A stretch of DNA of 11,066 nucleotides from Cetobacterium sp. UBA6069 (GTDB taxonomy: Bacteria > Fusobacteriota > Fusobacteriia > Fusobacteriales > Fusobacteriaceae). The translations under genes and the position numbers were made by a program. Below the pieces are notes generated by a model. The model had not been told where the DNA came from and ran no database searches. It saw nothing but the letters and a program-made list of their open reading frames with translations. Below, one piece after another: positions 3,827 through 9,017 of this stretch. The stretch's first letter is position 1; every line of letters begins with the position of its first letter. Where the stretch lies: assembly GCA_002428805.1 (NCBI GenBank), contig DIXX01000093.1, positions 9,409 to 20,474 on the forward strand. Reading direction: 5' to 3'.

Positions 3827-3866
3827 AGGTTGTTATTTCTCATAAAGATAGGGAGGATTGAGGTTT

Positions 3867-6386
3867 ATGAATTTTATATATGATAGAAAAAAAACTGCAG
3901 TAATTTATAAAGATAAAGAATATTCTTATTATGAGCTTATTAAAATGGCTAAAATATATTCTGAGTTATTAGATATAGAAAAAGAAGATAGAGTTGTTGT
4001 GTTTATGGAGAATAGACCAGAATATATGGCTGCTGTTTTAGGAGTGTGGGATAAAAAAGGAACGTGTACAAATTTAGATGCGAGTTATAATCCAGAGCAA
4101 TTAAGTTATGTTTTTAATGACTCTCATCCTAAATATATAATAACATCTAATGAAAACATAGAGGTTGTAAAAGCAGCAAAAGCAGATTCAAATTCAGATA
4201 TAATTATTTTAAATGTAGATGAAATTGATATAAAAAAAGAGATGAAAATAGAAAATGTAGCTATTGAATGCTTAGAAAAAGAAGCTATAGCAGTTATGCT
4301 GTATACATCAGGAACTACAGGAAATCCTAAAGGAGTAATGTTAACGTTTGATAATATAATGTCTAATGTTGAAGCAATTCAAGAGATAAAAATGGTTGGT
4401 GCTGAAGACAGATTACTGGCATTATTACCATTTCATCATATACTACCACTATCGTTTACAGTATTAATGCCTTTAAGCTTTGGATGTTTAGTTGTGATTT
4501 TAGATGAGCTTTCTTCAGAAGCTATAAAAAGAAATTTACAAAAATATAAAATTACTATTGTTATAGGTGTACCTAGAGTATGGGAGATGTTCCATAAAGG
4601 TATAATGGGGAAAATAAAGAGTAGTCCTGTTACTTATAAGTTATTTAATATTTGTAAATCTTTAAATATAATTCCATTAAATAAAATAATCTTCAAAAAA
4701 ATTCAAGAAGCATTTGGAGGAAATATAAACTTCTTGGTTTCAGGAGGAGCGAAGTTAGATAAGGAAATATGTGAGGATTTTAATGCATTCGGATTCAAAA
4801 TGCTTGAAGGATATGGATTGACAGAAACGTCCCCAATTATTTCTTTTAATAGGATTGATAACATCATTCCGGGAACTGTAGGAGTACCATTACCTGGAGT
4901 AAAAGTAAAACTAGAAACTGATGGTGAGATTGTGGTTAAGGGTAGAAATGTAATGAAAGGTTATTATAATAAACCAGAAGCTACATCTGAAGCAATTGAT
5001 GAAGAAGGGTGGTTCCATACTGGAGATTTAGGACAATTTGATGGAGACCATCTAAAAATAATCGGAAGAAAAAAAGAGATGATTGTTTTATCAAATGGAA
5101 AGAATATTAATCCATCAGATGTAGAAGCTGAAATTATAAAAGAAACAGATTTAATTGAAGAGGTTGCAGTTACAGAATATCAAAAACATTTAATAGCAAT
5201 AGTTTATCCTAATTTCAAAGTTCTAGAGGAGAGGGGAATAGCTAATACTAAAGATGCTATAAAATGGGAAGTTATTGATAAATATAATGTTACAGCTCCT
5301 AATTATAGAAAAATATTGGATATAGTTATAGTAAAAGAGGAACTTCCAAAAACGAAACTAGGAAAATTAAGAAGGTTTATGTTGAAAGATTTAATAGCGG
5401 GAGTTACTGCAAAAGTTAATGGAAATGAAACTGATAGTCAAGTTTTAGAAAAAAAATCGGTTGAGAAGAAAGTATCGACTTCAAAAGAGATAAATTCAGA
5501 GGAGTTTAAACAGATTTCTAAATATATCTCAACTTTACATGATGGAATAGATATAATTCCAGAATCACATTTAGAGATTGATTTAGGATTGGATTCGTTG
5601 GATATAGTAGAAATTATAACATATATTCAAAATACATTTGGAGTAGAGATTGGTGAAGAAGATTTTGCAAGAATAAAAACAGTAGAAGCTCTTTGTCAAT
5701 ATGTGAGAGAAAAAGGTGGAAGTTTTGAAGAGGGTGAAGTAAATTGGAAAAAAATATTTGAAGAGCCTGTAGAGGTAGATATGCCTACATCGAAAGCTGT
5801 TCTACCAATTACGACTGTTTTAAAACCAATATTTAATCACTATATAAAATTAGAAAGAAATATAGAAAAGCTTCAAAAAGAATCTCCTGTAATATATGTA
5901 GGGAATCATCAAAGTATGTTAGATGCATTTGCATTTGGACAAACCTTGCCAAAAGATATTTTAAAGAACACATACTTCTTAGCAATAAATATCCACTTTG
6001 AAGGAAAAATAAAAAAATATTTAGCCCACAATGGAAATGTGATCTTAGTTGATATGAATAAAAATTTAAAAGAAACTTTAAAAATAGCTGCAAAAGTATT
6101 AAAAGAAGGAAAAAATTTAGTTATTTTCCCAGAAGGAGCAAGAACTAGAGATGGAGAAATTCAAGAATTTAAAAAGACTTTCGCAATTCTGTCGAAAGAA
6201 CTAAATATTCCTGTGGTTCCATTCTCAATAAAAGGAGCATATGAATTAATGCCATATGGGCAAAGCAAACCATCATCTGGAAAAATGAGTGTAACGATAT
6301 TAGATCCAGTATCTCCAAAAGATAAAAGTGTTGATGAAATTTTGAAACTTACAAAACAAGAAATCATAAATAACTTAAAATCATAG
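3867..6386 (+). CDS. Acyl-activating enzyme / acyl carrier / PlsC acyltransferase fusion, copy A
   Basis: This 839-aa protein has three fused domains. The AMP-forming acyl-adenylate domain (about 1-510) carries YTSGTTGNPKG (146-156, ATP loop), GYGLTE (315-320), HTGD (384-387), GRKKEMIVLSNGKN (400-413) and PKTKLGK with the expected catalytic Lys500. The acyl-carrier domain (about 545-616) carries LGLDSLD, with Ser577 as the phosphopantetheine site, and looks like fatty-acid ACP. The PlsC domain (about 650-839) carries NHQSMLD (H681-x4-D686), FPEGART (754-760) and IPVVPF (781-786). No transmembrane helix is evident. By family knowledge it should make acyl-AMP, load the acyl group on its own carrier, and transfer it to an acceptor, probably a lysophospholipid. 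ATG 3867 is preferred over TTG 3858: GGGAGG (3851-3856) is 10 bases upstream, and the N-terminus then aligns with copy B. A plain acyl-CoA ligase label would miss two domains. Confidence 0.9.
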   Translation: MNFIYDRKKTAVIYKDKEYSYYELIKMAKIYSELLDIEKEDRVVVFMENRPEYMAAVLGVWDKKGTCTNLDASYNPEQLSYVFNDSHPKYIITSNENIEVVKAAKADSNSDIIILNVDEIDIKKEMKIENVAIECLEKEAIAVMLYTSGTTGNPKGVMLTFDNIMSNVEAIQEIKMVGAEDRLLALLPFHHILPLSFTVLMPLSFGCLVVILDELSSEAIKRNLQKYKITIVIGVPRVWEMFHKGIMGKIKSSPVTYKLFNICKSLNIIPLNKIIFKKIQEAFGGNINFLVSGGAKLDKEICEDFNAFGFKMLEGYGLTETSPIISFNRIDNIIPGTVGVPLPGVKVKLETDGEIVVKGRNVMKGYYNKPEATSEAIDEEGWFHTGDLGQFDGDHLKIIGRKKEMIVLSNGKNINPSDVEAEIIKETDLIEEVAVTEYQKHLIAIVYPNFKVLEERGIANTKDAIKWEVIDKYNVTAPNYRKILDIVIVKEELPKTKLGKLRRFMLKDLIAGVTAKVNGNETDSQVLEKKSVEKKVSTSKEINSEEFKQISKYISTLHDGIDIIPESHLEIDLGLDSLDIVEIITYIQNTFGVEIGEEDFARIKTVEALCQYVREKGGSFEEGEVNWKKIFEEPVEVDMPTSKAVLPITTVLKPIFNHYIKLERNIEKLQKESPVIYVGNHQSMLDAFAFGQTLPKDILKNTYFLAINIHFEGKIKKYLAHNGNVILVDMNKNLKETLKIAAKVLKEGKNLVIFPEGARTRDGEIQEFKKTFAILSKELNIPVVPFSIKGAYELMPYGQSKPSSGKMSVTILDPVSPKDKSVDEILKLTKQEIINNLKS

Positions 6387-6394
6387 TAGTAAAA

Positions 6395-6439
6395 AAATAA
6401 AGAAGCTGAGAGTATCTATTTCTCTCAGCTTCTTTATTT
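6395..6439 (+). terminator. Terminator between the two synthetase-acyltransferase genes
   Basis: Bases 6395-6412 pair perfectly with 6422-6439 (18 bp, including AAGAAGCTGAGAG and its complement) around a 9-base loop. The T-rich part (TTCTTTATTT) forms the lower right side of the stem. It lies just after the stop of copy A and just before the promoter of copy B, so the two genes are probably separate transcription units. Confidence 0.85.
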
Positions 6440-6445
6440 CATTAA

Positions 6446-6474
6446 TTGAAATAATAACACAATTATGCTATAAT
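6446..6474 (+). promoter_or_regulatory. Strong extended -10 sigma70-type promoter for copy B
   Basis: TTGAAA (6446-6451), a 17-base spacer and the perfect TATAAT (6469-6474), preceded by TGC (6466-6468, an extended -10 element). Predicted start is near 6481, about 38 bases before the start codon. It is closer to consensus than the promoter of copy A. Confidence 0.8.
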
Positions 6475-6507
6475 CATTTTGAGATTAAAAAAACACCTGT
6501 AATAAAT

Positions 6508-6521
6508 GGGAGGAAAAATTG
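6508..6521 (+). promoter_or_regulatory. Ribosome binding site and TTG start of copy B
   Basis: GGGAGG (6508-6513) lies 5 bases before TTG (6519-6521). No ATG in the frame is close. Starting here, the first 14 residues line up without gaps with copy A from its ATG 3867 (shared M, F, KTA and Y), which supports both starts. TTG usually lowers initiation relative to ATG and may offset the stronger promoter. Confidence 0.75.
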
Positions 6522-8981
6522 GAATTTGTAAAAAATCATAATAAAACTGCGATATTCTATGAGGGGAAAGAGTATTCGTATAAAGAGTTGATAGCTGGAG
6601 CTAAAGAGTATGCTTCATTGCTAGACTTAGAAAAAGAGGGGAAAGCTGTAGTATTTATGGAGAATAGGCCAGAACTACTTTATGCTTTTTTAGGAATTTG
6701 GGATAAAAAGGGAACTTGTGTATGCTTAGATGCTGCATCTAAAGTTTCAGAGTTTCAGTATTTTATAGAGGATTGTAGACCAAAATATATATTTGCATCA
6801 GAAAATACTTATGAGATAGCTAGAGAAGCTGTGGAAATGTCAGGAGTATCAACAAAGATTATAAATGTAGATAAAGTTGATTTATCAAAAGCGGATAAAG
6901 AGGGGACTATATATGCTCCAGACAGAGATGCAGTTGCACTAATACTTTATACTTCAGGAACAACTGGAAGTCCAAAAGGGGTAATGTTAACATTTGATAA
7001 TATACTAGTAAATATAGAGGGACTTAATAAATATAATATGTATAAACCAACAGATAGAGTATTAGCTCTATTACCTATGCATCATATATTCCCGCTTTTA
7101 GGTTCTGGAATAGTTCCGTTACAACAAGGAGCAACAATAGCATTCTTAAAAGAGTTATCATCACAAGCTATGATAGAAGCATTAAACAATTATAAAATAA
7201 CTATGATGATAGGAGTTCCAAGACTTTGGGAGATGCTGCATAAAAAAATAATGGAAAAAATTAACTCGAATAAAGTTATAAAAACTTTATTTAAGGCTGC
7301 TGAAAAAATAGATAGTAAAGATTTCAGTAAAAAACTATTTAAAAAGGTTCATGAAGGATTTGGAGGAAATATAAGGTTCTTTGTTTCGGGAGGATCAAAA
7401 TTAAATCCAGAAGTATCAAGAGATTTTAAAACACTAGGAATAGATGTTTGTGAAGGATATGGACTTACAGAAACTGCTCCAATGATTGCGTTTACTCCAA
7501 TAAATCAAGTTGTACCAGGATCAGCTGGAAAAATAATGGATGGTGTAGAGGTTAAAATAGCTGAAGATGGAGAGATTCTTTCAAAAGGAAGAAACCTAAT
7601 GAAAGGATACTATAATAAACCAGAGGCAACAGCAGAAGTAATCGACGCTGATGGGTGGTTCCATACAGGAGATTTAGGAGAGGTAAAAGATGAATATCTG
7701 TATGTAACTGGAAGAAAAAAAGAGATGATTGTATTATCAAATGGAAAAAATATAAATCCAATAGAGATCGAGCAATGGATAATGTCTAATACAGATTTAA
7801 TAGAAGAGATGGTAGTCATAGAATACAATGCTTTATTGACTGCAGTTGTATATCCAAACTTTGCAAAGGTAAAAGAGGGTAGAGTTACTAATATTGCAGA
7901 GACGTTGAAAAATGAAGTTATTGATAAATATAATGGTAAAGCACCAAATTATAAGAAAATTTTAGATTTAAAAATAGTTCAACAAGAGTTACCTAAAACT
8001 AAAATTGGAAAAATAAGAAGGTTTATGGTTCCTGATTTACTAGAGGGTAAGATTGAAGTAGAGAAAGAGGAAAACGCTCCAACATTTGAAGAGTATGTTG
8101 TAATTTCAGAATATTTAGCTAATTTAAAAAGTAAAAAAGTACTATCAAAAGCTCACTTAGAATTAGATCTAGGTTTAGATTCGTTAGATTTAGTTGAATT
8201 TATGGCGTTTGTCCAAAATAGTTTTGGAGTAAATTTAACAGAGGAAATTTTAACAGAGAATCCAACTGTGATAGCCATATCTGAATATCTAAAAGAGAAT
8301 TCAAATGGTTTAGAAGTGAAAGATATAGATTGGAAAACAATATTAGAAAAAGAGAGTTTGGAAGGATTGCCTAAATCAAATACTGCTGGAAAAGTTGTAA
8401 AGTGTATTTTAAAACCTATATTCTCAGGATACATAAAAATAGAGAAAGAAGGAGCAGAAAATACAGATGTAGCTAAACCAACGGTGTTTATAGGAAATCA
8501 CCAAAGTTTCTTAGATGGCTTTATTTTCAATCAGAGTGTTGATAATAAAATCTTAGATAACACATATTATTTAGCAAAAGTAGCTCACTTCCAAAAAGGG
8601 TTTATGAAGTCTCTAGGTGAGAATTCAAATGTTATGTTAATAGATATAAATAAAAACTTAGCAGAGACACTACAAAGTGCTGCGACAGCTTTAAGAAAAG
8701 GAAAGAATATAGTTATATTCCCAGAAGGAACAAGAACAAGAGATGGAGAGATGAAAGAGTTTAAGAAATTCTATGCTATTTTAGCAAAAGAGTTAGGTGC
8801 TGATATAGTTCCATTTGGAATTAAAGGTGCTTATGAACTGTTCCCAGCTCATAGAAAAACTCCAGCAAGAGGAACTGTAAAAGTTAAATTCTTCCCTAAG
8901 GTTTCACCAGCTTCTTTAACTGTTGAAGAGATTGTAGAAAAGAACTTTAAAGATATAAAAAAATGGGTAGAAGCAAAATAA
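6519..8981 (+). CDS. Acyl-activating enzyme / acyl carrier / PlsC acyltransferase fusion, copy B
   Basis: This 820-aa tandem paralogue of copy A has the same domain order and, by eye, about half or more identical residues. The adenylation domain (about 1-508) carries YTSGTTGSPKG (144-154), GYGLTE (313-318), HTGD (382-385), GRKKEMIVLSNGKN (398-411) and PKTKIGK (catalytic Lys498). The carrier domain (about 524-595) carries LGLDSLD with Ser555 as phosphopantetheine site. PlsC (about 630-820) carries NHQSFLD (H661-x4-D666), FPEGTRT (734-740) and IVPFGIKGA (773-781). All key catalytic residues are present, so both copies look active. The linker between adenylation and carrier domains is 20 residues shorter than in copy A and accounts for almost the whole length difference. 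The predicted role is ATP-dependent acylation of a lysolipid from free fatty acid, at the inner membrane face. Acyl chain and acceptor are not readable from sequence. Confidence 0.9.
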   Translation: MEFVKNHNKTAIFYEGKEYSYKELIAGAKEYASLLDLEKEGKAVVFMENRPELLYAFLGIWDKKGTCVCLDAASKVSEFQYFIEDCRPKYIFASENTYEIAREAVEMSGVSTKIINVDKVDLSKADKEGTIYAPDRDAVALILYTSGTTGSPKGVMLTFDNILVNIEGLNKYNMYKPTDRVLALLPMHHIFPLLGSGIVPLQQGATIAFLKELSSQAMIEALNNYKITMMIGVPRLWEMLHKKIMEKINSNKVIKTLFKAAEKIDSKDFSKKLFKKVHEGFGGNIRFFVSGGSKLNPEVSRDFKTLGIDVCEGYGLTETAPMIAFTPINQVVPGSAGKIMDGVEVKIAEDGEILSKGRNLMKGYYNKPEATAEVIDADGWFHTGDLGEVKDEYLYVTGRKKEMIVLSNGKNINPIEIEQWIMSNTDLIEEMVVIEYNALLTAVVYPNFAKVKEGRVTNIAETLKNEVIDKYNGKAPNYKKILDLKIVQQELPKTKIGKIRRFMVPDLLEGKIEVEKEENAPTFEEYVVISEYLANLKSKKVLSKAHLELDLGLDSLDLVEFMAFVQNSFGVNLTEEILTENPTVIAISEYLKENSNGLEVKDIDWKTILEKESLEGLPKSNTAGKVVKCILKPIFSGYIKIEKEGAENTDVAKPTVFIGNHQSFLDGFIFNQSVDNKILDNTYYLAKVAHFQKGFMKSLGENSNVMLIDINKNLAETLQSAATALRKGKNIVIFPEGTRTRDGEMKEFKKFYAILAKELGADIVPFGIKGAYELFPAHRKTPARGTVKVKFFPKVSPASLTVEEIVEKNFKDIKKWVEAK

Positions 8982-8984
8982 TAA

Positions 8985-9017
8985 AAATAAAGGTTGCCAA
9001 AGTGGCAACCTTTATTT
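8985..9017. terminator. Bidirectional terminator between copy B and the HIT gene
   Basis: Bases 8985-8999 pair perfectly with 9003-9017 (15 bp, GGTTGCCA core) around the loop AAG. T-rich sequence on the right serves the + strand and an A-rich flank on the left serves the - strand. It lies between two converging genes. Confidence 0.9.

Follow-up and report, generated by a model that had tools for sequence, protein, structure and literature searches.

The closest described counterpart of the proteins analyzed here is ElbD of Myxococcus xanthus, in which FAR1, ACS, acyl carrier protein (ACP) and AGPAT domains follow one another on one chain, and for which a review reports ACS and ACP activity in vitro (PMC9131029). 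The same review notes ElbD-like homologues without FAR1 in other phyla, and ElbD homologues are mentioned in the available parts of accounts of sponge bacteria (PMC9426513) and Black Sea bacteria (PMC11868695). We analyzed a stretch of 11,066 nucleotides from Cetobacterium sp. UBA6069 (contig DIXX01000093.1, positions 9,409 to 20,474; this whole stretch is referred to as the window), in which two adjacent genes, A and B, each encode a three-domain protein with an adenylation domain, a carrier and a PlsC-type acyltransferase. We propose that each protein is probably a self-loading acyl-ACP synthetase/acyltransferase by which fatty acids that the cell has scavenged are turned into phospholipid, an activity that is predicted for A and B from their sequences. 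A preliminary description of this DNA had already read the tandem in this way, and Pfam confirmed both genes, with every domain above the curated cut-offs. Its statement that no characterized example of the arrangement was known was not supported, in that ElbD carries ACS-ACP-AGPAT behind FAR1. The architecture is known in kind since ElbD, and what is new is the fusobacterial setting; the homologues without FAR1 that PMC9131029 mentions may include the fusobacterial proteins.

Gene A (3867..6386, + strand) encodes 839 amino acids from an ATG at 3867, with an in-frame TTG ahead of it at 3858 (+ strand), and gene B (6519..8981, + strand) encodes 820 amino acids from a TTG start. In both, Pfam places AMP-binding, AMP-binding_C_3, PP-binding and Acyltransferase in that order, all on the + strand. 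In protein A, the adenylation domain (AMP-binding, PF00501; residues 8-367, 3888..4967, E 4.8e-73) is followed by AMP-binding_C_3 (residues 404-503, 5076..5375) with the A10-motif Lys500 (codon 5364-5366), by the PP-binding carrier (residues 561-613, 5547..5705, E 4.8e-11) with Ser577 (codon 5595-5597), and by the PlsC-type Acyltransferase domain (residues 664-789, 5856..6233, E 3.1e-25) with HX4D at 681-686 (His681) and FPEG at 754-757. Protein B has the same succession, i.e., AMP-binding (residues 5-365, 6531..7613, E 3.7e-69), AMP-binding_C_3 (residues 402-512, 7722..8054) with the A10 Lys498, the carrier (residues 547-591, 8157..8291, E 1.9e-7) with Ser555 (codon 8181-8183), and Acyltransferase (residues 640-769, 8436..8825, E 2.2e-23) with HX4D from 661 (His661) and FPEG from 734. 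The carriers score 43.2 bits in A and 31.7 bits in B against the Pfam cut-off of 20.8. A motif check returned the A10 lysines and placed the carrier serines at exactly the residues that had been named before; the HX4D and PEG motifs of PlsC/AGPAT enzymes are present in both proteins.

The same motifs were examined in 61 homologous open reading frames (ORFs) of at least 650 amino acids, taken from the stretches that were fetched and homologous over most of the protein; long ORFs without homology over most of the query were left out. All 61 retain the A10 lysine, the carrier DS, both H and D in HX4D and EG in the PEG motif, in line with the earlier statement that the key motifs are intact; since this set was picked by length, badly broken copies are excluded from it, and one row is cut at its 5' end. 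The set was drawn without a filter on adenylation motifs, and two A3 variants were seen thereby: the P-loop motif deviates in the second copy of genome G061 and in one copy of G089, and is absent from one truncated row. A chance motif match was rejected on the Pfam E-values and on this conservation. An AlphaFold2 model built with 57 sequences has three ordered domains (mean predicted local distance difference test score 86.3, predicted template-modelling score 0.62), with a low-confidence hinge at 518-534 between the adenylation and carrier domains and a helix that begins at Ser577. In Foldseek, adenylating enzymes rank first, and the best matches in a viral structure library cover just one part of the protein, either the synthetase or the acyltransferase.

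Several other known systems share parts of this plan. In E. coli Aas, PlsC is N-terminal, the synthetase is C-terminal and there is no built-in carrier. A and B resemble Aas, and the PRK08633/PRK06814 multidomain forms, in joining an acyl-ACP synthetase to a PlsC-type acyltransferase, but the domain order is reversed and the carrier is covalently fused, as the preliminary description had proposed and the Pfam order bears out. A and B score 227 and 203 bits against PRK08633 (cut-off 1221), and the curated scores of PRK06814 and, in a scan of the PlsC parts alone, of PRK08043 are not reached; membership in E. coli Aas was rejected on domain order and scores. The A-PCP modules of the nonribosomal peptide synthetase type and the carboxylic acid reductases likewise combine an adenylation domain and a carrier with off-loading at the C-terminus. 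The latter off-load by reduction, whereas A and B would off-load by a PlsC-type acyltransferase, and not by condensation or reduction. The AlphaFold2 model matches the A-PCP structure of McyG (4r0m, at rank 11 in Foldseek), and at the sequence level there is a match to the carboxylic acid reductase 5msc. The PlsC domain itself matches by sequence (E 1.1e-17) the solved structure 5kym, a stand-alone PlsC from Thermotoga maritima; 5kym belongs to the same acyltransferase fold family and has no synthetase or carrier. Acyl-ACP synthetases of the AasS type use a separate ACP and have no acyltransferase domain. They recycle free fatty acid (PMC11271967), as is proposed here for A and B. ElbD and the proteins A and B have ACS, ACP and an AGPAT-like acyltransferase in the same order on one chain; ElbD differs by its N-terminal FAR1-like reductase, which A and B lack, and by an ether-lipid operon with the HAD-like elbB and the NAD epimerase elbE, neither of which flanks the genes in the window.

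The three-domain protein is matched at E 1e-100 or better in 92 of 98 Fusobacteriota genomes (73 of the 79 high-quality ones), and an oddity of Cetobacterium was rejected on this count. Genome G047, which bears FabF, has a broken copy with in-frame stops (G047:C1:1810041-1812497; L058). Copies labelled as plasmid-borne were seen in Fusobacterium animalis (pSB029A, L062:5001-7475) and, as a tandem pair, in Ilyobacter polytropus (pILYOP01, L064:6001-11168). Outside the phylum the same three domains occur in Rubrobacter and relatives, Bacteroidales and Bacteroidaceae (L141, L143; two Bacteroidota), Opitutales (L144) and Thioalkalivibrio (L145). The survey across phyla that the preliminary description had envisaged thus recovered the architecture in Fusobacteriota and in at least these groups. 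In the wider contig scan, from which 80 of 567 loci were kept and which is not a census, L141-L144 are the ones of the 80 that pass a motif filter, and L145 fails it but is three-domain by Pfam. Among 120 matches listed of 7,741 in Rubrobacter relatives, all have AMP-binding and Acyltransferase, and PP-binding is lacking in many precomputed rows. The uncultured bacterium of L142 has the ElbD form, with NAD_binding_4 ahead of the three domains. In a quick tree with long-branch warnings, built without the truncated L013 row, L142 and the Rubrobacter/Thioalkalivibrio rows stand apart from the rest with an SH-like approximate likelihood-ratio test (SH-aLRT) value of 100, and the Bacteroidota and Opitutales rows group on the fusobacterial side; the split of A and B from the ElbD type has this same value, with L142, a long branch, standing in for M. 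xanthus ElbD. Another fusion type was also seen, in ORFs of 950-1135 amino acids with AMP-binding and PP-binding and no PF01553 match listed; AMP-binding/PP-binding ORFs without a listed PF01553 match lie at G007:C10:22515-24035, G010:C1:88569-90092 and G013:C20:4215-5798.

The case for a role in phospholipid synthesis comes from the genomes that have lost FabF (PF02801), the gene that stands here for type II fatty-acid synthesis (FASII); 'FASII-less' is shorthand, FabF being the gene tested in all ten. FabF is unmatched in 12 of the 98 Fusobacteriota genomes, and ten of these are at least 91% complete; G028 (70% complete) and G082 (76%) were set aside as uninformative. The ten comprise nine of family f4 (G044, G052, G057, G058, G060, G089, G090, G095 and G096) and G061. 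The three-domain protein is matched in all ten, and in a PF01553 search of these genomes every match lies inside a frame of 787-846 amino acids, i.e., within the three-domain protein. By the same search, a stand-alone PlsC of 242-261 amino acids is present in 11 of 11 FabF-bearing comparison genomes; in a separate search, one is listed in 17 of 17 FabF-bearing f4 genomes. Both PlsC forms are present in G010, G021, G032, G050 and G097, and G047 has stand-alone PlsC beside its broken three-domain gene. Two copies of the three-domain gene occur in six of nine FASII-less f4 genomes versus none of 24 others.

The loss is visible in gene order. In the window's genome the order, with names by Pfam, is plsX-fabH-fabD-acpP-fabF-rnc, and in the FabF-bearing f4 genomes G040 and G050 FabF lies ~1 kb from acpP. 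After fabF loss, acpP has been retained directly beside rnc in G044, G052, G057 and G058 (L221-L224). An assembly gap was rejected as the cause of FabF loss in f4 because of this acpP-rnc junction in four genomes and because G052 is at published chromosome length, its 1,662,578 bases being those of Streptobacillus moniliformis 9901T. According to its description, strain 9901T needs blood, serum or ascites fluid in media, and the fatty acids listed are C16:0, C18:0, C18:1 and C18:2 (PMC3035246); a second source gives 14:0, 16:0, 18:2 with 18:1, and 18:0 (PMC4529157). Genome G058 is close in size to, and at a guess may be, Sneathia amnii, for which the literature reports a genome of ~1,339,284 bases and growth aided by human serum (PMC3535699). 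The term 'fatty acid' is absent from PMC5093955 and PMC3535699, and no report that Streptobacillus or Sneathia has lost FASII was found in the open-licence literature searched. Hosts usually contain linoleic acid, which to our knowledge is not commonly made by bacteria; serum-grown cells could also carry it unincorporated.

Other lipid genes were followed in the same genomes; the figures for PlsX, PlsY, free ACP and other AMP-binding proteins cover five of the ten FabF-less genomes, i.e., G044, G052, G057, G058 and G061. FakA and DegV/FakB are found in eight of all ten. Of the 35 genomes tested for PlsY, G061 is the only one without it, and thus four of the five FabF-less genomes among the 35 have it. 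No PlsX match was found in any of these five, nor any other AMP-binding match above the cut-off, the latter being the case in 18 of the 35 genomes.

The most reduced set of genes is that of G061, of which 766,287 of ~767,976 bases were searched and whose completeness is 91% by estimate. With E. coli tblastn queries at E 0.01, no match was obtained for PlsX, FabH, FabD, FabG, FabF, FabZ, ACP, AcpS or AccA, nor for PlsY, PlsB, LpxA-D, MurC, UvrC, PssA or Psd. The queries that did find a match were CdsA, PgsA (two stretches), GpsA, Lgt, FtsZ, SecA and LepA; those for PlsC and Aas match just the two three-domain genes. With fusobacterial queries, PlsX, FabH, FabD and FakAB have no match at E 1, FabF and PlsY have nothing better than E 0.4, a stand-alone PlsC query finds the three-domain genes, its other matches being no better than E 0.9, and ACP queries match in the three-domain genes alone; the positive controls rnc (50% identity, fusobacterial query), ftsZ and secA were found. 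The locus of one three-domain gene runs from a phosphopantetheinyl transferase (PPTase, found by Pfam) through PgpA, with which that gene lies tail to tail. Because the PP-binding family (PF00550) has two matches in G061, both in three-domain proteins, these carriers are the only substrates in sight for the PPTase, which is the best evidence that the carrier may be armed. Ankyrin-like long repeat proteins, noted by eye, adjoin one of the three-domain genes (L066:9082-12300), and E. coli BacA and IspU are also without tblastn matches. By its appearance, G061 belongs to a host-associated lineage with a reduced genome and perhaps without a cell wall.

In the mechanism that we propose, the adenylation domain would activate free fatty acid with ATP, as its intact motifs suggest, the ACS domain of ElbD being the one for which such activity in vitro is on record. 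A PPTase would arm the serine of the built-in carrier, in keeping with the G061 locus, and the acyl chain would be loaded on this fused carrier. The C-terminal PlsC domain would then hand the acyl chain to a lysophospholipid, the most probable one being lysophosphatidic acid, which would be acylated at sn-2 to give phosphatidic acid, judging by the genes that the genomes lack; in-chain transfer and the acceptor are what we infer. Where FASII is present, as in the species of the window, the protein would act as a supplement to it. Its part in the FabF-less relatives would be acylation at sn-2, because this step needs an acyl thioester and an acyltransferase and no other candidate was seen, and exogenous fatty acid could be placed at sn-1 by FakAB with PlsY. 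In G061 both acylations may fall to the two copies, since no PlsX, PlsY, PlsB or stand-alone PlsC was found there. The preliminary description had suggested that scavenged fatty acid could be turned into membrane lipid in this way, and the gene-loss patterns support such a route; overall its interpretation is partly supported. A more far-reaching proposal, to which we give somewhat less than an even chance, is that the two proteins of G061 form its entire acyl arm, i.e., that they activate the fatty acid, provide the sole acyl carrier and carry out the two acylations that lead from glycerol-3-phosphate (G3P) to phosphatidic acid, without free ACP, PlsX, PlsY, PlsB or PlsC, and that FASII-losing Fusobacteriota have replaced the stand-alone PlsC/acyl-ACP route by a self-loading enzyme.

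A number of observations weigh against the self-loading reading. PlsX is also unmatched in the FabF-bearing genomes G040, G042, G047 and G050 and is under the cut-off in G094, so the loss of PlsX is not confined to genomes that lack FabF, and FakA is absent also from FabF-bearing G021, G032, G037, G079 and G097. Genome G057 has PlsY and no match for PlsX, FakA or DegV, which leaves its source of acyl-phosphate unexplained. The absence of stand-alone PlsC from ten of ten FabF-less genomes, set against its presence in 11 of 11 FabF-bearing ones, gives a Fisher p of 2.8e-6, a value that overstates independence because five FASII-less f4 genomes in the tree cluster together and probably two losses lie behind the ten. 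Some FabF-bearing species manage without the protein, as seen from the six genomes of 98 without a match at the E 1e-100 cut-off (G007, G013, G022, G037, G047 and G079) and from FabF-bearing G070, in which the matches are split, with stops (G070:C1:871444-878314). Several of the absences in G061 rest on distant E. coli queries alone, the AcpS query having missed the PPTase that Pfam found, and CoaD was not matched in this genome of 91% estimated completeness. Free ACP (acpP) is kept in four of the five FabF-less genomes tested, and therefore loading in trans is possible. Two copies have a weak carrier profile, one of those in G061 (18.8 bits against the cut-off of 20.8; 23.5 in another scan) and the one on the F. 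animalis plasmid (15.3 bits against 20.8), although both still have DS. The PlsC domains of A and B score 70.1 and 76.5 bits against the AGPAT model TIGR00530, under its cut-off of 102.95, and the excerpts of PMC9131029 report that acyltransferase activity of ElbD was not detected in vitro. In F. nucleatum, FabK is reported to be essential even with exogenous fatty acids, for which the authors point to lipid A (PMC12921513); the protein therefore does not replace FASII in that species.

The alternative that survives best, which we nevertheless regard as unlikely, is that the proteins repair or remodel lysophospholipids in the manner of E. coli Aas: those derived from the host or from turnover would be re-acylated, and no phosphatidic acid would be made de novo. 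The PlsC domains match the Aas-type models PRK08633 (66-67 bits) and PRK08043, in both cases far below the cut-offs, and the separate PlsC of FabF-bearing species means that de novo synthesis there would not need the three-domain protein. Repair does not readily account for the ten FabF-less genomes, where PF01553 has no match outside the three-domain protein, or for G061, which keeps GpsA, CdsA, PgsA and PgpA for the de novo steps from G3P and has no other acyltransferase match among the queries. Less probable still is that the adenylation domain loads coenzyme A (CoA) or free ACP for general pools, with the fused carrier and PlsC loosely coupled to it. The acpP genes kept in FabF-less genomes and the two weak carrier profiles would fit this arrangement, as would the use of CoA by related AMP-binding enzymes. 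Set against it are the carrier serine conserved throughout the 61 ORFs and G061 itself, where no free ACP was matched and the PPTase would then be without another visible substrate. A role in making ether lipids or plasmalogens, which has been proposed for ElbD (PMC9131029), is highly improbable: A and B share the ACS-ACP-AGPAT order with ElbD and FAR-bearing L142 but have no FAR/NAD_binding_4 domain by Pfam, adjoin no NAD epimerase or HAD gene, and fall in a clade apart from L142, the long-branch warning applying to this last point.

We further considered the arrangement of the two genes in the window. Proteins A and B share ~50% identity, and in the quick tree the window's two copies fall separately into clades A and B of the Fusobacteriaceae, so that the pair is read from these sequences as an old duplication. 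Between the genes lies a terminator-like hairpin (6396..6438, + strand; -24 kcal/mol, z -7.45) of 17 bp with a loop of 9 and a U-rich 3' arm; no clear T run follows the stem, and the hairpin is not among the terminators given by the pattern scan. It is followed by a promoter-like site with an extended -10 (TTGAAA-17-TATAAT, 6446..6474, + strand; 11/12 in the pattern scan), which is among the two best of 30 such sites observed where 28.1 are expected by chance. The hairpin and the promoter-like site together suggest, without proof, that A and B are perhaps two transcripts in tandem. After gene B the pattern scan gives a terminator-like hairpin on both strands (8985..9017), one of 2 observed against 1.5 expected by chance. 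The neighbouring genes in the window, i.e., leucyl aminopeptidase, GNAT, DUF2628, SIMPL and nitroreductase, and HIT, RpiB, FKBP and DJ-1, have no obvious lipid role, and an Rfam scan of the window gave no match. The window lies on contig C7 of a 1.73-Mb assembly that is 67.5% complete.

In the open-licence literature, to which our search was confined, we found no paper on the fusobacterial protein, and no report of its phylum-wide form or of its status as the sole PF01553 match in FabF-less members. The fusobacterial proteins, which have one clear predicted substrate, make a direct test possible of the acyltransferase step, for which the review reports no activity in ElbD. If the self-loading reading is true, most of the phylum can make membrane phospholipid from scavenged fatty acid with a single protein, on which some members depend, since their fatty-acid synthesis is lost. 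It would help to explain the linoleic acid in the profile of serum-grown Streptobacillus, it would define a minimal enzyme set for building a membrane from free fatty acid, and it would bear on whether Fusobacteriota can bypass inhibitors of fatty-acid synthesis.

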